From Cryomorphaceae bacterium BACL11 MAG-121001-bin54 (lineage in GTDB: Bacteria > Bacteroidota > Bacteroidia > Flavobacteriales > BACL11): 64,000 nt of DNA. A program made the translations under genes and the position numbers. Numbering within the stretch: the first letter of the stretch is position 1; each line of letters begins with the position of its first letter. This document shows, piece by piece, positions 53,442 through 64,000 of the stretch. The notes beneath the pieces were generated by a model. The model was not told the origin of the DNA, made no database searches, and worked only from the letters and a program-made list of their open reading frames with translations. The DNA lies in NCBI GenBank assembly GCA_905182255.1, contig CAJJAH010000001.1, positions 281,508 to 345,507 of the forward strand. Reading direction: 5' to 3'.

Positions 53442-53465
53442 AAAAAGGAAGTTACCTTCCTTTTT
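53442..53465 (-). terminator. Terminator after the PorV-like surface operon
   Basis: AAAAAGGAAG pairs with CTTCCTTTTT around TTAC, with a T tract in the minus-strand sense. It ends the operon at 53491-62523. Confidence 0.75.
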
Positions 53466-53490: not shown

Positions 53491-54570
53491 TTATAAATTG
53501 ATCCTAACCCCAATAGTATGTGAGCCTTGGAAAGGATCAGTGTGACGATAAGAATAGTCCAATCCAAAAGTATTAGCATTACCCATTGGTAATTCTATTG
53601 TGAAACCACCAGAGGGGCCTCTTAGAGCAGTTGTTCTTGTTAACGGAGTCCTTATGCCATCTTCGTAAGTATAACCTAAACGTACCATAAACATTTCTCT
53701 GTAAGAATATTCCCCTCCAAGTCTATATTGATCCTTTTGAAAAGAGTTAGAAGTAAATGTCCCAGCTCCAGTTAATCTATGTCTTAACACGTTGATATCA
53801 TATGACATACCTATATTTAATAATGCTGGTAACTCAAGTTCAGAAGATCTTTGCTCTACAGTCATTTTATAATCATCCTCATCACCGGAAAAACCTCTAA
53901 ATGAAAGACCGTCGCCTGTAAATGACATTCTTGGCCCTACATTTTTTAATGAAATACCAAATTTCAAGTTATCTTTTTCCCCCGTTACATACTGTATACC
54001 AGCATCTAACGCAATACCACTAGCTCCCACGTTAGAAATTTGTTCAGAAATCATTTTGATAGTCATACCACCATAAATACTATTAGAAAATACCTTTGCG
54101 TAAGAAAGAGCTATATTCATAAATTTTGGAGAATAAGTACCAATTCCTGCATCAGGTAAATCTACAGTAGTAATCTCAATTTCACCAAAATCCATACTCA
54201 TGATTGATAAGCCAAGCACACCAGATTCCCCTACTTTTTGAGCAAAACCAAATGAACTTATAGTACTTACTGAACTATTAGCATCAAACATTTTATTGCC
54301 ATATTTTAACCAAGAAGTTTGTGAAAAAATTAATTCCGTTTTTTGAGTAAATGCTAAACCAGCAACATTAGAAAAAATTCCTTCTATTCCTCTAACTCCT
54401 GCTATATTTGCTCCTGCCCATCCCGAGGATCTTGCCCAAGGGTTGATTAATAATTCAGAAGCTCCTGCTTGCCCTGCTCTTTGCTCATTTCCGGCAAAAA
54501 TATCTTGAAATGGAATCATCATTATAGCAACAAAAACTATTGCTTTTATCCAGTTATTAATTTGTTTCAT
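53491..54570 (-). CDS. PorV/PorQ-like outer-membrane barrel protein
   Basis: A 359-residue protein (signal peptide MKQINNWIKAIVFVAIMMIPFQDIFA) of the PorV/PorQ (UPF0164-like) type: AGQAGASELLINPWARSSGWAGANIAGVRGIEGIFSNVAGLA near 30, repeated strand segments and a final barrel strand GSHTIGVRINL. In Porphyromonas PorV is the T9SS shuttle that takes cargo to the sortase, so this copy may serve the 1410-residue neighbour. I place the start at ATG 54570 rather than the TTG at 54594. It ends in a terminator. Confidence 0.82.
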   Translation of the reverse strand: MKQINNWIKAIVFVAIMMIPFQDIFAGNEQRAGQAGASELLINPWARSSGWAGANIAGVRGIEGIFSNVAGLAFTQKTELIFSQTSWLKYGNKMFDANSSVSTISSFGFAQKVGESGVLGLSIMSMDFGEIEITTVDLPDAGIGTYSPKFMNIALSYAKVFSNSIYGGMTIKMISEQISNVGASGIALDAGIQYVTGEKDNLKFGISLKNVGPRMSFTGDGLSFRGFSGDEDDYKMTVEQRSSELELPALLNIGMSYDINVLRHRLTGAGTFTSNSFQKDQYRLGGEYSYREMFMVRLGYTYEDGIRTPLTRTTALRGPSGGFTIELPMGNANTFGLDYSYRHTDPFQGSHTIGVRINL

Positions 54571-54602
54571 ATCTATACTATTTATTATCGTCAATATTTA
54601 TA

Positions 54603-57600
54603 TTAAAATGTATCCATGTCAATTGGGCGCAAAGCTCCAAACCATTTAATTATTTTCTCACCAATTCCAGGAGAATTTATATGAATAATGTAAAGTCCAC
54701 TAGCTATTGGAATTCCATAATCATTTTTCATATCCCAATCTACTGAAGTTACAGAATCATCCTTCATAATCTTACGAACTAAAGTACCACTTACAGTAAA
54801 AATAGAAATTGTTGCTCGTTGGGGCAAATTAGTAATCTTTACTCTATTGTCTAGCTGATTTGTTTCATAAGAAGAAGCACCATAGTAAGGATTAGGAACA
54901 GCTCTAATTAATTCTAATGCATCTTTCGCAACATTTATATCTCCAGTTTTAGCAACAATACTATCTGTGTTAAACCCGTATGTAGGATTAAACGAATTGA
55001 TTGAACTAGCCTCAATAACTCGAGCTTTAGCACTAGTGTTAGAAGTAATTAGATTAGTTGTTGCTACAAAACTTTCACCTATCTCATATGTGTTACCATC
55101 ATGATTTACTGATTTTCCACCCCAAGTAGTTGCTGAATTCTGATAAGCTACCACATAAGTTGAATCAATAAGTAATATTGCATCTCTATCTAATATCTTT
55201 TCAGATGATACAGTTTCATACTGTCTGTATGGTTTAGAAACTCTAAGCTTAATTGTTGCGTCATTTCTTTGTTTTGTTGGATCAGTTTTTAAGCTTGCTC
55301 CAGGTGAAAGTAATGGAATACCACACCAAGAAACATTCTGAAATACTCTCCATTTTCCAACACCAGCATCATTAAGTAGCTTTGCATGAATCCAAGTCCC
55401 TTCATCGTAATTAGGTGGTAGATCAACATCCTCAAAATTACCATTGACATAATCATCCGTACCTTTAACCCAAGAGTTTCCGTTAACAATATAAACAAAG
55501 TGTTTTCCTCCAAGTAAATAATTTCCATTACTAAATTGCTCTCCTACTGGAGCAGTTGGATCAAATTGAGGCAGTTCTTCAGTTGCAATTGAAGATGTTG
55601 GATTCCAGATCATATCTGACCCATTATCTGAAGTTAGCCACGAATCTTCAGCAAAAATAATATTCAATCTTTCACCTGTTTCTACATCGATTGCATATCC
55701 AGGGAACCAACCCATTCCGATAGTTCCACTTGAATCAGGCTGACCATTTTTATTAACTGAAGGAGACTTTCTTAATCCCATTTTAGTCTGCTGACCAATA
55801 GAAAGCGTTTCATCATCCTGTGATTCAACTACACATGATCTAGTCCATTGAGCAGTATCATTAGTAAATACTATATCTACAGAACTCAAATTAATCAGTT
55901 TTGACTGATTTGTAACTGAATTACTAAGCCCAGGTCCATCATTAAAGTAAGATACAAAACGATAAGGAGCCCAAGTTCCTCCATTAGTTTCTAAATCAAA
56001 AAATGTATAACTAATTTTATTTGTTTGCATTACGGCTCCTTCAAAAGAGCCATTAGGATCATCATTTTGATTATAGTCATTAAAAACAGATGCGTCATCA
56101 TTAGTGTAAGAACCAGCTCTAATCCAGTTTAATCCCCATGCAAAAGATGAACCATCATCATCTCTATCAGCTAAACCTGTTAACCATCTATCGTTTACAT
56201 TTTCAAACTCTATAGAGCTAGATATTAACCCATTGTTTAATATATTAGTTGGATCTTCACCTGGGTTGCTAACTTGTTTTACTTTAATATTTAAGCCTAA
56301 GCTACTAATATAAACTTCAGTTCCAACTAGAATATCTTCGTTAGCTGAAGCTACAACATATCCTGTTTCTTCATTAATCAAAGACCATTTACCGTAAGAA
56401 GTAATCAATCCAACATTAGTCACAATTGGTTCCATCAACTTTAAGATAAAACTTCCTTTAGGAATATTGACAGGATCTACAACTGAAATGTCAATTGGAC
56501 CTTCCCCTGCCTCATATGTTAAATGCATAGCTCTATGATCAGAACTTTCAAGAATAGTCTCAATTGTTGCTTTAGTAAGTTCTAGAGCACTACCTCCATT
56601 TCCTGTCCCTTCGAATCGAGTAATTTGTACTCCATCACCATAAGAAGCTTCTAAGGTTGTTCCACCTGCATCAGGAGAAGTAAAATGAGGTATACCTGAA
56701 TAAACTTTAATATTTCTTCTTCCAGAAATAAATGGCTGATTTCTACCATCATAATCAGGAGCATTCACATCATAAGGACTTGCGTTTTCTTCTGCTCTAT
56801 TATAGCCATATGATAGTGACATAAAGTAATAGGTTTTATGATTTACTAAGCGTGTATTTCCTAAGGCAAATTTATCTTCTGTTATTTGAAAAGAGTACTG
56901 AACACCTTGATCAACAGAACCAACAACACCCTCACTTAATATGGAAGCAACTTCCTCAATTGGAGTATACACGCCTAAAATTGGATCAAGATATTGATTT
57001 ACAATTCCTGAAACTGTATCATTAACATCACTTCTAAAAACTAATCTTGCTTTATCTAAATCATCCAAATCAGTAACTGATACTGTAGCACTTTTTAATT
57101 GATAAACTAAGTATCCTTGGAATTCGTAATTCTCTGAATAAGTTGATGCACTAGGGTTAAGATTAGCTGCTAACGTAATGTAAGGATCTTTTTCTGAGTA
57201 TGATTCATTTATATTATTTGAATTTTCTCCATTTGAAAGAGTAAAAATTAATTCTTTGTCTAACTCTCTAATTGTTAAATCAGGAGCGTCAGGTCCATTT
57301 AGGATATCAAAATTATTATCAAATAAAGCCTGAGCCTCCCTGTCATAAATTTTTAGCAGCTGTATAGATGCTGTTTGTCCTCCTGATTTTGCTCTTGCCC
57401 AAACAACACCCGTTGTAATATTATTTACTGCACCTGGCTGTAAAGTAAAAGGTCCAGCTGATTGTAAAAATCTTCTATCAGCAGGAACATTTCCTGCAGT
57501 TTGCTCTGTCCATTCCTGTCCAGGAAATTGATCATCTGATGTTCCAGGGAACATAAAATTACATTCATCAGTTGTTGAACCCGCACCTGCACCATGACCA

Positions 57601-58835
57601 TCACCACCAAAAGTCATTGGTACATTATCTCTCCATATTCCTCTTAAATAATTGTAGAAATCTGTTCCTCCACTAGGGTTTCCTTGTACAGTTCCGTCAT
57701 TGTTGTAATATACGAACTTAGACATAATAATCTGCTCTGCTTCCTCATCAATAGTTCCATCTCTATCGTTATCAATACCATCATTTGGATCAGCCAATGG
57801 TCCTTGAAAAAAATCTACTCCAATAGCAGGTGGATTAAAACCATAACCCTGAGCACCTTCATCTTCAGCATCTCCATTATAACAAAAGCCTAAACCTAAA
57901 TTAACATCACATCCTACATAATCATCTAAATAATAACCTAAATCAGCATCTACCCATTGTCCAAAATAAGTGTCGTTCAGAGGGAGTGTTGAACGATTAA
58001 TAATTTTATAATTATAAAAGGTCATATCATTCACTTCATTGTCGGATGTAAAACCAAAGGCCTGTGCATGAACTTCTAAACCTAGGGCATCAGCCTGTGT
58101 TTCAGAATGAATGTTTCCCTTGTCATTAAATATCCACCACAAAGTTTGATCACCAAATAAGGCAGCAGCATCATTATTACCCGTTATATTGTAATCAGGA
58201 TAATCACCACTGTATGGCTCATATATACCATTGCCATTAACATCATAAAAAGGAGCTAAAAACTCATCTTGTCCCAAAGATTGGTCACCATGAGCAGGCC
58301 AATCTAAAATTGATTCAGGAATAACATAAGTTGGGTCAGTACCAAAACGAGCGTTATATTCCTCAACTATTGAACGATCAATTTTAAAATGCTTATCCCA
58401 TTTGGCACATTCATCAGCCGGAATGGTAGCATTATCAATATTCAAAGGACCTGCCCAGAAATCATTTCCACTCTGACGATAAGTCATAGCAGCAACCTTT
58501 AATTGCCCACCAGCATCTACTCCTCCAATCCACAAAGCACCTGCAAATAAAGAGTGTTTATTACCTCCTTTTGGTATTTCATACTGAGGATCCGCTAAAT
58601 TCCACCACATATCACCTCCACCCATTATAGTGGTTCTCACATTATTAATATCTAAATCAGTTTGTGAATTAGATGGATCACAACCTGCAGCAATTTTCGT
58701 GTTAATAACGGAAGATAAATTTTGATTAACATTCTCCTTTGCTACTAATGTCATAGTAAATAGAACTAAGTAGAGGGTTGCTGCTTTTTTTATTGAATTA
58801 TTCATAAATGCTATATTTTTCAGTCTCATTTTCAT
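54603..58835 (-). CDS. Giant surface protein with T9SS-type sorting tail
   Basis: A 1410-residue exported protein. After the signal (about 15-34) come IMGGGDMWWNLADPQYE and AGALWIGGVDAGGQLKVAAMTYRQSG, typical of a Bacteroidota surface-protein module. DGIDNDRDGTIDEE near 335 looks like a calcium-binding repeat. The C-terminal part, AVPNPYYGASSYETNQLDN... ATISIFTVSGTLVRKI... PIASGLYIIHINSPGIGEKII, is a T9SS-type sorting domain, followed by an extra KWFGALRPIDMDTF. Function is unknown. It lies between a TonB receptor and a PorV-like barrel in one operon, with seven-base spacing, so the three likely act together at the outer membrane. Confidence 0.8.
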   Translation of the reverse strand: MKMRLKNIAFMNNSIKKAATLYLVLFTMTLVAKENVNQNLSSVINTKIAAGCDPSNSQTDLDINNVRTTIMGGGDMWWNLADPQYEIPKGGNKHSLFAGALWIGGVDAGGQLKVAAMTYRQSGNDFWAGPLNIDNATIPADECAKWDKHFKIDRSIVEEYNARFGTDPTYVIPESILDWPAHGDQSLGQDEFLAPFYDVNGNGIYEPYSGDYPDYNITGNNDAAALFGDQTLWWIFNDKGNIHSETQADALGLEVHAQAFGFTSDNEVNDMTFYNYKIINRSTLPLNDTYFGQWVDADLGYYLDDYVGCDVNLGLGFCYNGDAEDEGAQGYGFNPPAIGVDFFQGPLADPNDGIDNDRDGTIDEEAEQIIMSKFVYYNNDGTVQGNPSGGTDFYNYLRGIWRDNVPMTFGGDGHGAGAGSTTDECNFMFPGTSDDQFPGQEWTEQTAGNVPADRRFLQSAGPFTLQPGAVNNITTGVVWARAKSGGQTASIQLLKIYDREAQALFDNNFDILNGPDAPDLTIRELDKELIFTLSNGENSNNINESYSEKDPYITLAANLNPSASTYSENYEFQGYLVYQLKSATVSVTDLDDLDKARLVFRSDVNDTVSGIVNQYLDPILGVYTPIEEVASILSEGVVGSVDQGVQYSFQITEDKFALGNTRLVNHKTYYFMSLSYGYNRAEENASPYDVNAPDYDGRNQPFISGRRNIKVYSGIPHFTSPDAGGTTLEASYGDGVQITRFEGTGNGGSALELTKATIETILESSDHRAMHLTYEAGEGPIDISVVDPVNIPKGSFILKLMEPIVTNVGLITSYGKWSLINEETGYVVASANEDILVGTEVYISSLGLNIKVKQVSNPGEDPTNILNNGLISSSIEFENVNDRWLTGLADRDDDGSSFAWGLNWIRAGSYTNDDASVFNDYNQNDDPNGSFEGAVMQTNKISYTFFDLETNGGTWAPYRFVSYFNDGPGLSNSVTNQSKLINLSSVDIVFTNDTAQWTRSCVVESQDDETLSIGQQTKMGLRKSPSVNKNGQPDSSGTIGMGWFPGYAIDVETGERLNIIFAEDSWLTSDNGSDMIWNPTSSIATEELPQFDPTAPVGEQFSNGNYLLGGKHFVYIVNGNSWVKGTDDYVNGNFEDVDLPPNYDEGTWIHAKLLNDAGVGKWRVFQNVSWCGIPLLSPGASLKTDPTKQRNDATIKLRVSKPYRQYETVSSEKILDRDAILLIDSTYVVAYQNSATTWGGKSVNHDGNTYEIGESFVATTNLITSNTSAKARVIEASSINSFNPTYGFNTDSIVAKTGDINVAKDALELIRAVPNPYYGASSYETNQLDNRVKITNLPQRATISIFTVSGTLVRKIMKDDSVTSVDWDMKNDYGIPIASGLYIIHINSPGIGEKIIKWFGALRPIDMDTF

Positions 58836-58842
58836 TATCTAA

Positions 58843-61800
58843 TTAAAATTGCAAACTAATACCTGCCCTCCACATTCTTGGAAGACTATAGTTAGATGGA
58901 TTATTAACACCTAAAGAATATAAATACCTAAATGCTTCTGCATCATTTTTTGCGTCAATTGCGTTTTGTGCTGCTGCTGAAGTTAGATATCCATCATCCT
59001 CAGGATTACCTGTTGCTCTGTAGACACTAACTATATTTCTAGCATCTAGTAAATTCTGTACTTGTACATATACATTTAAATTAGAGCTCTTTTTATCATT
59101 CCATTTAATTTCGAATGACTTATTCACTTTAAGATTCATTCTGAATTGCCAAGGTAAACGAGAGCCATTAATATTACCTGCCAAAGTAGAACGATCGTTA
59201 ATTCCATCAGCAGCTTCTTGAGTAATATTTGACTGACGAGAATAAGGTGTTCCTGATCCTGCAGAGAACATAAGGTTTGCTCCTGAATTTTGAAAAACAT
59301 TAGCTCCAAACCAAACTGGCCCGTCATAATCTTTTCCGTTACCATAATGATAATCAACTGATGCGGAAATAGCATGTCTTTGGTCATAAGACAAAGGAAT
59401 GGTAGTACGCAGGTTTGGTTGTCCTGTACTAACTAAACTAGCTCCTGATGTAGCCGAGGAACCAGTACCATCAGCAAACTGCAAAGTATAATTAGCAGTA
59501 AGTTGTATATTATTTGTTCTTCTTAAGTCGTAATTAATAGACATCCCTTTTACAGTACCAAAATCTATATTACCGTAAGTATAATACTGTGCAGGGTAAG
59601 CAGACAAAGTATTTGTTATTTGAATCATGTCTCTTAACTCCTTGTAAAATGCAGAAATTTTAAGGGCTGACTTTAAAGATAAAGTTTTAGCAAATCCTAA
59701 TTCATAATCAACTGTTTTTTCAGACTTTAAGTTGGGATTATTCAAAGTTGCACCAACCCTATCAGCCATAAATAAATAATCAACTGGCTCTAATCTATTT
59801 CCTGTAGGAGGTCTTTGTGTCAAAACATCGTAATGAGCAAAGAATTGTGCTTCATCAGAAATAGGAAAAGAAAAGGCAATTCTAGGCATAAATACTGTTT
59901 CTGGAGTGTAGTCTTCAAAAGCATCCATTTTAATATCTCCATTTTTCGCATCATCTGGATTTATTAGATAAGGAGCTATTTTACCTCCTGCAGCCTCAGC
60001 TAATAAAGTAGGGTCAGAAATAACAAGACCATTAGCATTATACCAAACATCTCCATCACGATAACCCACTACAGCTGATGGATTCTCAATATCATCAACA
60101 TAAACAATGTAATCATCACCAATTGTTGAGGGAGTAGAGTTTGAGTTTAATAAATTAACATCAGCACCAGCTGTGTAAGCACTATAAAGCAAGTATTTAT
60201 CTTTTAATACTTTTTGATTTGCATCAAAACGATCAACTCTTACACCTACATTAAAAATTAAATCTTCTATCGCAAATTTATCTTGAATATATCCTGCTTG
60301 GTAGATTGGATTATAAGGAGCAATATTTCTTAAATATTGTCCATCGTCATCCTGGTAGGTAAAGAAATCCTTTAATGTATTACGTGTATCATTTTTATTG
60401 CCATAAATATCATATCCGTAGTAATATACTAATGAAGAACCATTATTCAACAACTCGTCTTGACTAAACATATCTAAAGTAAATGCATCAGGAGTGTATG
60501 AATCAATATCTATGTATTCTAGCTGACCAATATTGAGGGCCTCTCTAAAGTTAGCATCAAAAGTTGATTGCTCACTTTCAATGAACAAACGGTCATAATT
60601 AATAGTATCTTGGTAAATCCCATTTTCATCAAATACTGGATATGGTTTAGATAAATTTCTTTCTAAAATATGTTTATTAGCTTGCTGACGCATTAAGCCC
60701 CACAAATTCATTGGAGATACTCCCCAGTAATAATCTTTTCTTTGCTCGAATTCAAAGCCAAAAGAAAGTTCGTGTGATTTAATGTCAGCAGAACCTGATG
60801 CTTTAAAAGTAGTTTGTGTATTCTCTTGCTTGGCAGAGCCATTATACATAGTCCCATGATTTCCAAATAAAGAATATACGTTTGATGGTAATTGACCATT
60901 CAACAATCCTTGTCCTTGTAAATCTGCAGCAGTTCTTAGTTGCCCATCAGCACCATAACCATCTATGTAAGAAGACATACTGTATTGTGAAAACATGTCA
61001 ATGTATGCATTAGTATAGTTCTCTAATGATTTATTAACGCCACCTGCTGTATATTCAAAAAGTGTATCTGTCCAACCATTTAACGTTCTTCCTGTGTAAA
61101 CAATACCTGTTGAAGTATCAATAGCAGATCCGAAACCGTATATAGGAGCCTTACTAGTAACAAATTGACCAATGTATCCATAATTAAATAAATCCTCTTG
61201 ATGGTCTGCATCAACATATGTATATTTATTATTTGTGTAATTTCCTTGAATAGTAAAGAAAGCATTTTTAATAGTAGCTGATGATTCATCCTCATTATCT
61301 TCGTCAGATCCAAATTTTTGCACTAACTTTCCAAATACACGGTAAGTATGCTGGGTAGATTGACGGTTGTTGTCCCAAGAGAACATTGAACGCCATGAAG
61401 AAAAATCTCTACTTTCACGAGCATAGTAGGAACCTCCTAATGAAAGAAAAGTATTATTACTAGGCTTAAAATCTAATTTACCAGAAATGTTAAATCTTTT
61501 TTCGTTAGCATTAAGTTTTGCCTGAACATTCTCAAAATCTTTTTGTTCTAAAAATTCCGATCTACTTAAAAACCCAGCAGAAGCATTAGGTGCAATTTGA
61601 AATGGATTAGCTTGTAAATCTGCTAAAACATCATCTTTCACTTTCCATCTTCCAATTGCTGAAGGATCAGTATCGTCTACACTTCTAAATTCACCTGCTA
61701 AAAAATAACCAATTACAGAAGAGCCTTTAGACCCATCAGTGTTTCTTTTTTTCAAAATAGGACCAGAAAGAGAAAATCCTAATAAATTGTAGTTGTAACT

Positions 61801-62523
61801 ATCAAATAATGATGAAGATTCAAATTCAATACCTCCAAACAATTTATTAGAAGGTCCTTTTGTAGTTATCGAAATAATCCCTCCAGTAGCATCACCATAT
61901 TGCGCAGGAACACCTCCTGTTATTACAGTGATTTGCTCGATACCTGAAGTGGGTACACCCAAACTACCCCTTACTTTAATACCATCAACATAATATTCAG
62001 TTGCATCAGAACGAGAACCCCTTACATTAACAGCATCCCCTTCATCTCTTTGATAGATACCAGCTGTACTTGCAGCTACAGATGCAATATTTCTTGTAGG
62101 TAAAGCAACAATCTCTTCTGCTGTTTTTGTTTCTCCCGAAAGATTATCCTGGTCCAAAAGCGGCTTCTTGTAAGCTATAACTTTTACCTCCCCAATTGCC
62201 ACACCTTGCTGAAGCTTCACATCTTGAAAGGTAATCTTATTTGCAGAAACAATTACACCAGTAACTTCAACAGTTCCATAGCCAACAAATGTTGCTTTGA
62301 TGGTGTAAGTACCTGGTTCAACTGGCTTAATTGTATAGTTTCCATCAAAATCAGTTGTTGTTCCACCTGATTGATTTCCATTTTTTTCAATAACAATATT
62401 TGCAAAAGGAATTGACTCTCCAGTCATTGCATCAGTTATAACCCCCTTCAGGGTTCCACTTTGCGCCATAGCAAGTGATGAAGTAAGCACTAAAGCTGCT
62501 ATTAAATAAATTTTTCTCAACAT
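58843..62523 (-). CDS. Large TonB-dependent receptor with regulatory domain (operon head)
   Basis: A 1226-residue receptor with signal peptide ending LAMAQ. Residues about 22-110 are a carboxypeptidase-like regulatory domain (SGTLKGVITDAMTGESIPFANIVIEK). The plug runs ALPTRNIASVAASTAGIYQRDEGDAVNVRGSRSDATEYYVDGIKVRGS with ITGGVPAQYGDATGGIISITTKGPS near 205, then a long barrel ending SLPRMWRAGISLQF. It is longer than iron receptors and resembles SusC-sized receptors, but no SusD neighbour follows. Ligand unknown. Seven bases separate it from the giant surface protein gene. Confidence 0.88.
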   Translation of the reverse strand: MLRKIYLIAALVLTSSLAMAQSGTLKGVITDAMTGESIPFANIVIEKNGNQSGGTTTDFDGNYTIKPVEPGTYTIKATFVGYGTVEVTGVIVSANKITFQDVKLQQGVAIGEVKVIAYKKPLLDQDNLSGETKTAEEIVALPTRNIASVAASTAGIYQRDEGDAVNVRGSRSDATEYYVDGIKVRGSLGVPTSGIEQITVITGGVPAQYGDATGGIISITTKGPSNKLFGGIEFESSSLFDSYNYNLLGFSLSGPILKKRNTDGSKGSSVIGYFLAGEFRSVDDTDPSAIGRWKVKDDVLADLQANPFQIAPNASAGFLSRSEFLEQKDFENVQAKLNANEKRFNISGKLDFKPSNNTFLSLGGSYYARESRDFSSWRSMFSWDNNRQSTQHTYRVFGKLVQKFGSDEDNEDESSATIKNAFFTIQGNYTNNKYTYVDADHQEDLFNYGYIGQFVTSKAPIYGFGSAIDTSTGIVYTGRTLNGWTDTLFEYTAGGVNKSLENYTNAYIDMFSQYSMSSYIDGYGADGQLRTAADLQGQGLLNGQLPSNVYSLFGNHGTMYNGSAKQENTQTTFKASGSADIKSHELSFGFEFEQRKDYYWGVSPMNLWGLMRQQANKHILERNLSKPYPVFDENGIYQDTINYDRLFIESEQSTFDANFREALNIGQLEYIDIDSYTPDAFTLDMFSQDELLNNGSSLVYYYGYDIYGNKNDTRNTLKDFFTYQDDDGQYLRNIAPYNPIYQAGYIQDKFAIEDLIFNVGVRVDRFDANQKVLKDKYLLYSAYTAGADVNLLNSNSTPSTIGDDYIVYVDDIENPSAVVGYRDGDVWYNANGLVISDPTLLAEAAGGKIAPYLINPDDAKNGDIKMDAFEDYTPETVFMPRIAFSFPISDEAQFFAHYDVLTQRPPTGNRLEPVDYLFMADRVGATLNNPNLKSEKTVDYELGFAKTLSLKSALKISAFYKELRDMIQITNTLSAYPAQYYTYGNIDFGTVKGMSINYDLRRTNNIQLTANYTLQFADGTGSSATSGASLVSTGQPNLRTTIPLSYDQRHAISASVDYHYGNGKDYDGPVWFGANVFQNSGANLMFSAGSGTPYSRQSNITQEAADGINDRSTLAGNINGSRLPWQFRMNLKVNKSFEIKWNDKKSSNLNVYVQVQNLLDARNIVSVYRATGNPEDDGYLTSAAAQNAIDAKNDAEAFRYLYSLGVNNPSNYSLPRMWRAGISLQF

Positions 62524-62635
62524 GGTATAATGTTTCGTTTTAATATAAATTCTGTTTTTAAAGGCCGTAAAGATAACAAATAAATTAATACATCAATGAA
62601 GGAAAAATCCATTTCTTTTTCATAAAATTGCAATT

Positions 62636-63049
62636 ATGAAATCACTACTCTACATCCTTATCATACCATTGATTTTCTCAACATGTAACACAAAAGACGA
62701 TTATATACAAGATATTTATGTAAATATTAACGTAGATTTAAATTTGCCAGAATATAGTGATTTACAAGCTTCAGGGAGCTCCATTTTTATTGTAGGAGGA
62801 GTTGAGGGCATCATCATTTATCATGGGGTTGGAAATGATTACAAAGTATTTGACAGAAACTGTAGCTACGAACCTTCACTATCTTGCTCTAAAATTGACA
62901 CTGTAAATGCTGGAATTGCCTATTGTGGTTGCTGCTCCTCAGCCTTTTTATTAAGTAATGACGCAAGTGTAATTAACTCTCCAGCATTATTGCCATTAAA
63001 AACTTATAATTGTATCTATGATGATCCTATTTTAAGAATATTTAATTAG
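62636..63049 (+). CDS. Rieske-like fold lipoprotein with altered ligands
   Basis: 137 residues, lipobox FSTCNTK (Cys17). The layout, INVDLNLPEYSDLQ, GVEGIIIYHGVGNDYKVFDRNCSYEPSLSC near 60-85, GIAYCGCCSSAFLLSND near 93, and PALLPLKTYNCIYDDPILRIFN at the end, follows the order of Rieske 2Fe-2S proteins (ligands normally CxH and CxxH). Here the first site reads CSY and the second CGCCSS, so the histidines are missing or replaced by cysteine. This suggests a Rieske-like beta-fold without a normal cluster. Its 3' end overlaps the convergent T9SS gene by eight bases. Confidence 0.65.
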   Translation: MKSLLYILIIPLIFSTCNTKDDYIQDIYVNINVDLNLPEYSDLQASGSSIFIVGGVEGIIIYHGVGNDYKVFDRNCSYEPSLSCSKIDTVNAGIAYCGCCSSAFLLSNDASVINSPALLPLKTYNCIYDDPILRIFN

Positions 63050-64000
63050 ATCCAGTCTTTATTATCTTTTTTCTGATTTTATTCGCATCAAATGAAATAT
63101 CTAAAAAGTATAATCCATTTGATAGCTCACTAATTTCTAAAGAAGATAATCGATAAGGAAATCGATCACTAGCAACAACCCTATTAATAACTTCTCTACC
63201 ATAGAGGTCCGTTAATAAAATTGAAGCGTCGGAAAATTCTGCATTCATTATGTGTATTGTTAATGGGTATCCATTTGAAATAGGATTTGGACCAACTTTT
63301 ACAATTCCAGGAGAAGGTATAGATTCTGAATTCATGAGATTACTTAATAATACTTGCTCTGACGAATAAGTACAGCCAAATTCATCAGTTGCTACAATAT
63401 AATAATTACCATTAACAGATGCTGGGAAAAAAGATTGATTTGCTCCATTAATAATTCCATTATCGCCATACCATTGTAAAATAGAATACAATGCTGAATC
63501 TAACATCCATGCCGTTGAACCATTATGATCTAAGATTGGCTGATAAGTGGTATCGCATATAACTACTAAAGACTCTAAAGAAATAGCAGAGCAACCATGT
63601 TCATTTACAACGACTAAAGAGTACAGTCCAGAAGATAATGGTGAAATAAAAGTATCGATAGCGCCAGGAATTGGACTACCATAATAATACCACTGCATTG
63701 CTATAGAGTCTACAGAAGTAGAAATTAAATTATTTAAGCTATCATAAGTTATAATTGGAACTAAAGGATAATCATAAACATAAATTGTATCTGATGATAA
63801 AACAGTATTTGCTGGAACTTCAATCACTGTGTAATTTATTGACAATCCTCCTCCATTTAAAGAAAAGCTGCCTGGCTGTTGCTGAGGAACAAATGTAACT
63901 CCTCCACAGTACTCAAGACCCCAAGGCCAACCATCATCATCCCATACATCAATTGTTACATCTTGTCCTATTAATTGCAATGGATTAAAAAGATTAATTA
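63042..64000 (-). CDS. T9SS cargo protein, C-terminal part (runs off right edge)
   Basis: A minus-strand frame that stays open to the window edge; the Met at 63980 is internal, as INLFNP continues ahead of it. Visible are beta-rich immunoglobulin-like segments such as GSFSLNGGGLSINYTVI and SLVVVNEHGCSAISLESLVV (SPR-like cysteine/glycine modules), NGNYYIVATDEFGCTYSS, and a T9SS type A sorting domain, KVGPNPISNGYPLTIHIM ... ILLTDLYGREVINRVV ... LSNGLYFLDISF... KIIKTGSN. It is a secreted or surface-attached adhesin-like protein. Full length and N-terminal domain are unknown. Confidence 0.82.
   Translation of the reverse strand, partial: INLFNPLQLIGQDVTIDVWDDDGWPWGLEYCGGVTFVPQQQPGSFSLNGGGLSINYTVIEVPANTVLSSDTIYVYDYPLVPIITYDSLNNLISTSVDSIAMQWYYYGSPIPGAIDTFISPLSSGLYSLVVVNEHGCSAISLESLVVICDTTYQPILDHNGSTAWMLDSALYSILQWYGDNGIINGANQSFFPASVNGNYYIVATDEFGCTYSSEQVLLSNLMNSESIPSPGIVKVGPNPISNGYPLTIHIMNAEFSDASILLTDLYGREVINRVVASDRFPYRLSSLEISELSNGLYFLDISFDANKIRKKIIKTGSN

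Follow-up and report, generated by a model that had tools for sequence, protein, structure and literature searches.

A TonB-dependent receptor, a giant secreted protein and a PorV-family barrel form a gene triad kept across Bacteroidota and suggestive of private T9SS carriage

Background

Three neighbouring genes of Cryomorphaceae bacterium BACL11 MAG-121001-bin54, encoding a TonB-dependent receptor (TBDR), a giant secreted protein and a PorV-like outer-membrane barrel, raise the question of whether the barrel serves the giant protein as a private carrier, and whether the receptor belongs to the same surface unit. Type A CTD cargos of the T9SS are described as sharing a single shuttle, PorV (PMC12618676, PMC12635249), while type B cargos have dedicated PorP/SprF carriers, which are encoded directly downstream and stay bound (PMC12618676, PMC12635249, PMC9143113). 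It has been speculated that uncleaved CTDs are shielded by PorV-like barrels cognate to them (PMC10202324). The triad was not described in the literature that we searched on PorV-like proteins and on T9SS with TBDRs. Here, we analyzed a window of 64,000 nt (the whole stretch of DNA under study; GCA_905182255.1, contig CAJJAH010000001.1, 281,508-345,507) and compared its triad with those of relatives throughout the phylum.

Operon structure of the triad

The three genes lie head-to-tail on the minus strand, at coordinates that agree with those of the preliminary description, and encode the TBDR (1226 aa; 58843..62523), the giant protein (1410 aa; 54603..58835) and the PorV/PorQ-family barrel (53491..54570). 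The barrel gene likely starts with the ATG at 54570 rather than with the TTG of the mechanical ORF (53491-54594), which is open from 54594. The gap between the TBDR and giant genes is 7 bp, and that between the giant and barrel genes is 32 bp when counted to the ATG or 8 bp when counted to the TTG. Direct reading revealed an intrinsic terminator 3' of the barrel gene (53442..53465, minus strand; AAAAAGGAAG-GTAA-CTTCCTTTTT), a perfect AT-rich hairpin with a T run that is the sole terminator of the triad and that was absent from an automated scan because its stem is AT-rich. A putative promoter 5' of the TBDR gene (62568..62596, minus strand; TTG, 18 bp, TATCTTTA) was likewise read directly and resembles the Bacteroidota promoter consensus. 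The short gaps and the one terminator confirm the earlier proposal that the triad is a single operon.

Past the terminator lie greA and then a HIT-family gene, both identified from their own sequences; among the triad loci L048-L067, greA was directly downstream in the loci examined, and the HIT-family gene was found in nearly all. On the other side of the operon, the same strand carries a T9SS type A tailed protein (63042-63998, minus strand; PF18962, 35.8 bits) that is cut by the window end, and a small lipoprotein-like ORF (62636-63049, plus strand) sits between it and the operon.

The TBDR was recognized by its CarboxypepD_reg (62.7 bits) and Plug (44.3 bits) domains, both over the Pfam cut-off, and its profile matched solved TBDR structures. 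The giant protein starts with a Sec-type signal peptide without a lipobox cysteine, as read by eye, followed by a beta-rich N-terminal region (residues ~47-700), a variable middle and a C-terminal domain (CTD). Neither the giant nor the barrel gave a useful Pfam domain, and the SusD family had no Pfam match in the giant. Structure prediction was confident for residues 36-740 of the giant (AlphaFold2, pLDDT 90.6, pTM 0.88), and a 1018-aa relative gave pLDDT 85. In Foldseek, the N-terminal half of the giant bore only a vague and partial likeness (TM ~0.2) to one element of GH94/GH116/GH15-type enzymes, their beta-super-sandwich; their catalytic barrel has no counterpart in it. We did not read a function from this likeness, and a carbohydrate-related ligand is no more than a weak lead.

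The C-terminal domain of the giant protein

The giant had been described as a 1410-residue T9SS-tailed protein; its size stands, and its tail proved to be divergent. The CTD, which spans approximately the last 115 aa (54603..54950, minus strand) and has the conserved end KWFGALRPIDMDTF, scored 22.2 bits with TIGR04183, just below the cut-off of 23. PF18962 had no match at the giant locus, though it matched 29 other places in the same genome, and the giant thus lies outside the type A cargos as recognized by either model scoring over its cut-off. The PorZ model matched 17 of 21 giants (best E 6e-12), the match falling at the CTD in those members whose matched stretch was displayed, while the rest of the giant showed no similarity to PorZ. 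A full-length giant relative hit PorZ in Foldseek (5m11, E 1.2e-6, low TM), and the giant profile, when compared with solved structures by sequence, gave a sub-significant PorZ match. Judged by these comparisons, the giant would be a T9SS cargo in the wide sense, with a predicted Ig-like CTD that is related to known T9SS CTDs and falls into a PorZ-like subclass.

We built a giant-CTD profile from relatives of the window's giant and scored it against other cargos. It gave 172 bits on the window giant versus 3-13 bits on eight type A tails of the ordinary kind that this genome also encodes. Five other cargos, which are encoded beside PorV-family barrels and were outside the building set, scored 39-99 bits, and a neighbouring ordinary type A protein scored 10 bits. 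The giants also extend 8-9 conserved residues past the point at which ordinary type A tails stop, with an L-[DN]-x-F type motif and a final F, Y, L or I in 103 of 104 giants, a set whose selection favoured such ends. PorU and PorZ, which keep their CTDs, have three and one extra C-terminal residues, respectively (PMC11285876). The extension of the giant may matter for the choice of carrier.

A separate lineage of PorV-family barrels

The barrel is a member of the PorV/PorQ family (NF033709, 133.3 bits, cut-off 90), and it falls below the cut-offs for PorV (NF033710, 57.1 bits, cut-off 250), PorQ (NF033711, 69.2 bits, cut-off 220) and PorV2 (NF052325, 26.3 bits, cut-off 325). True PorV (485.8 bits), PorQ (298 bits) and PorZ (595 bits) are encoded elsewhere in the window's genome, and a replacement of PorQ or PorZ by the barrel or the giant was ruled out by their separate presence. 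NCBIfam reported neither a type B CTD nor the PorP/SprF family for the giant and the barrel, and solved structures gave only a weak PorV match to the barrel by sequence. A tree of 124 PorV-family proteins, computed by a quick method, placed the 42 triad barrels without exception in one clade (SH-aLRT 98) separate from PorV and PorQ-type proteins, and their nearest neighbours were barrels paired with other CTD cargos (joint group support 88). The triad barrel is a separate, ancient and long-diverged lineage.

Conservation of the triad across Bacteroidota

Within the window's own family, the giant was found in 47 of 52 genomes, including all 15 of high quality, and both neighbours were kept at every giant locus with contig room. 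Beyond the family we followed the best matches, so the triad fractions are no random estimate. The full triad was present in 20/20 loci fetched at the order level; the apparent lack of the barrel at L055, which is counted among the 20, proved to be an ORF-calling artefact. At the class level, a scan of genome contigs yielded at least 574 relatives, and among the 80 kept for the neighbourhood check, 68 retained TBDR, giant and barrel in the same order and on the same strand. The record titles at this level name Flavobacteriales, Bacteroidales, Cryomorphaceae, Crocinitomicaceae, Sphingobacteriaceae and others (unverified MAG titles). The remaining 12 loci comprised two cut by contig ends (L112, L134), two without an adjoining barrel (L123, L149) and eight giants without a surrounding triad, of which some lie close to a contig end. 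For the phylum beyond the class, the triad was present in 19/19 fetched loci (L152-L170), with giants of 1008-1269 aa that share the N-terminal and C-terminal parts; L171 was rejected as a member, having an ordinary tail and neither a barrel nor a TBDR adjoining. The presence of the triad is patchy, with two families of the same order (f3, f6) showing weak giant matches or none.

This conservation goes far beyond chance. Scattering of the genes among relatives had been named in advance as the outcome that would refute the proposed unit; the comparison did not refute it, and the triad held across Bacteroidota. In full triads, the TBDR gene was always immediately 5' of the giant gene.

Divergent second giant paralogs were observed in the own family (G049:C1:540351-543509, G009:C71 and G029:C8), that of G049 sitting in a 2157-aa frame. 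In the window's own genome, identical type A tails occur at C1:387790-388017 and C6:13031-13258 in open frames of 3972 aa, which may reflect either a duplication or an assembly artefact.

Orphan giants and coupled divergence

We checked ten genomes in which a giant is orphaned or the barrel is unlinked, and each had exactly one strong triad barrel (405-507 bits). Their being barrel-less was ruled out, as all ten encode the barrel elsewhere, and among these ten no giant was found without a barrel in the same genome. A giant adjoins the barrel in nine of them, mostly as a full triad, whereas the contig of the remaining one stops at the barrel. One barrel per genome suggests that the giants were multiplied or separated there while the barrel stayed single. 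For orphan giants without an adjoining barrel (e.g., L078, L090, L107 and L140), carriage by the barrel would have to take place in trans. One genome (L123, L302) has a TBDR-giant pair split from a second giant with the barrel. In genome G545, a second giant and a triad-type barrel (L256 3475-8033) occur besides the main triad, with the same C-terminal extension.

Pairwise divergence was tightly correlated within the triad (r = 0.85-0.94, 18 loci) versus r = 0.22-0.57 between the triad and the neighbouring GreA and HIT proteins of the 18 loci, a suggestive contrast given that GreA and HIT are short and the control correlations noisier. The greA and HIT-family neighbours were seen to diverge independently of the triad proteins (L048-L067). 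Partial correlations within the triad, controlled for PorV from the same genomes, were 0.70-0.90. Over 44 loci phylum-wide, the divergence correlations of the triad were 0.91-0.93, a level that vertical inheritance would largely produce for any set of genes. Together with the strict linkage, the tightly correlated divergence supports the proposal of a dedicated receptor.

Linkage and co-divergence also follow from co-regulation, and the giant might then be a T9SS cargo of the ordinary kind, which PorU cleaves and which becomes attached to LPS, sharing an operon with its neighbours but forming no physical complex. The TIGR04183 score only just below its cut-off and the existence of orphan giants would fit this account. 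We nevertheless regard it as quite improbable, as gene order is kept over the whole phylum, a single barrel persists per exceptional genome even with duplicated giants, the barrels form their own clade, and the CTD is PorZ-like with a conserved extension.

Other cargos paired with PorV-family barrels

We sampled distant genomes with 9-18 PorV-family genes each and found that approximately 24 of 39 such genes, the main PorV excluded, lie directly downstream of a CTD protein gene, while several had no CTD protein adjoining. Many cargo and PorV-family pairs were seen in genomes outside the class (L224-L230, L233-L234, L237, L240-L246, L248-L249, L253-L254 and L282-L283); the cargos tested from them had a CTD of the PorZ-like subclass, with KFxxIK/R as the end of most.

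A second conserved cluster encodes a CTD protein (~720 aa), an ordinary type A T9SS protein, a lipoprotein, a TBDR (~950 aa), a PorV-family barrel and an NHL-repeat lipoprotein. It was found in genomes of the window's own taxonomic order at L313 2892-13874, L314 3487-14514, L315 16-11040 and L316 6492-16999, and outside the class at L312 3446-14719 and, less complete, in L311. Its barrel was not among the PorV-family matches of the window's genome. This composition indicates that a TBDR, a cargo and an own PorV-family barrel are a recurring combination.

PorV belongs to the FadL superfamily, and the triad barrel could accordingly be imagined as a FadL-like porin or a transport partner of the TBDR, with the giant as an ordinary T9SS binding protein delivered via the general PorV and the operon serving the uptake of a poorly soluble ligand. 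The PorV-family gene of the second cluster, which directly follows the TBDR gene (L231, L252, L260, L263), would agree with such a role. However, the same cluster also holds, a few genes upstream of the PorV-family gene, a CTD cargo of the same subclass as the giant (L312-L316), some two dozen PorV-family genes have CTD cargo directly upstream, and the CTD of the giant is unlike ordinary type A tails. We therefore consider this reading unlikely.

Distribution relative to the T9SS

SprA was present in 26/26 phylum- and class-level triad genomes compared by hand; the window's own genome, at only 53% completeness, showed none. Those f32 genomes that were displayed as lacking SprA were absent from the matches of the giant, and the sampled f3 and f6 genomes had SprA with a weak giant match or none. 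The co-occurrence with SprA, a phylum-wide and usually single-copy presence, and the PorZ-like CTD could also mean that the giant and the barrel assist the T9SS or surface assembly itself, as a third pair in addition to PorU-PorV and PorZ-PorQ, with the TBDR energising or gating that process instead of nutrient uptake. Yet many T9SS-bearing genomes, including those sampled from f3 and f6, are without the triad, so the T9SS does not need it, and such a role seems to us quite improbable.

Discussion

Gene order, the separate barrel clade, the distinct CTD subclass, the coupled divergence and the presence of SprA lead us to read the triad as a case of private carriage: with somewhat better than even confidence, we favour a T9SS cargo that has a dedicated PorV-family carrier to collect and anchor it and that is displayed with its receptor. 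In this scheme, Sec would export the giant to the periplasm and the CTD would direct it through the SprA translocon, whereupon the adjacent PorV-family barrel, not the general PorV, would collect and keep it. Clasped by the barrel, the uncleaved CTD would go on anchoring the giant in the membrane, an arrangement reported for PorZ with PorQ and for SprB with SprF. In that case the N-terminal beta-rich region would lie at the cell surface, beside or over the TBDR, where it may act as an extracellular lid that binds what the TBDR takes up or senses. The idea that the PorV-like protein is a private shuttle for the giant thus finds good support in gene neighbourhood, the separate clade and the CTD type; private carriage itself, like T9SS export, retention by the CTD and receptor contact, is what we infer from them.

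More broadly, instead of comprising a single general shuttle and PorQ, the PorV family may be one of ancient private carriers, each with a cargo of a separate CTD subclass, among which the triad would be the most widely conserved in Bacteroidia, coupling such a carrier to a TBDR in a receptor complex with an extracellular part delivered by the T9SS; we give this generalization about an even chance. If true, it would widen the picture of a single PorV for type A and private carriers for type B cargos, provide a rule to predict cargos anchored via an uncleaved CTD, and link the T9SS to TonB-dependent receptors. Pairing by gene neighbourhood makes the matching of CTDs and carriers testable in many bacteria.

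Among known systems, the SprB-SprF and other type B pairs (Flavobacterium johnsoniae) resemble the triad in that the gene for a large cargo at the cell surface is immediately followed by that for its carrier, and their dedicated carrier is proposed to stay bound as an anchor (PMC12618676, PMC9143113, PMC12635249), as we propose for the triad. Unlike SprB-SprF, the triad has a carrier of the PorV/PorQ family, a CTD that is PorZ-like and not type B, and a TBDR in the operon. In PorZ-PorQ and PorU-PorV, the cargo CTD is not removed and is kept on a PorV-family barrel (PMC10202324), and the CTD of the giant matches that of PorZ; the triad differs in coexisting with true PorZ, PorQ and PorV, and the giant has 8-9 extra C-terminal residues. 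The general PorV shuttle is of the same family as the triad barrel, whereas the latter forms a separate clade and is linked to one cargo. Finally, SusC-SusD, RagA-RagB and BtuB-BtuG share with the triad a TBDR gene that adjoins the gene for a proposed extracellular partner (PMC12578637 and general knowledge). In contrast to those partners, the giant is neither a SusD protein nor a lipoprotein, but carries a T9SS-type CTD and is accompanied by a barrel gene of its own.
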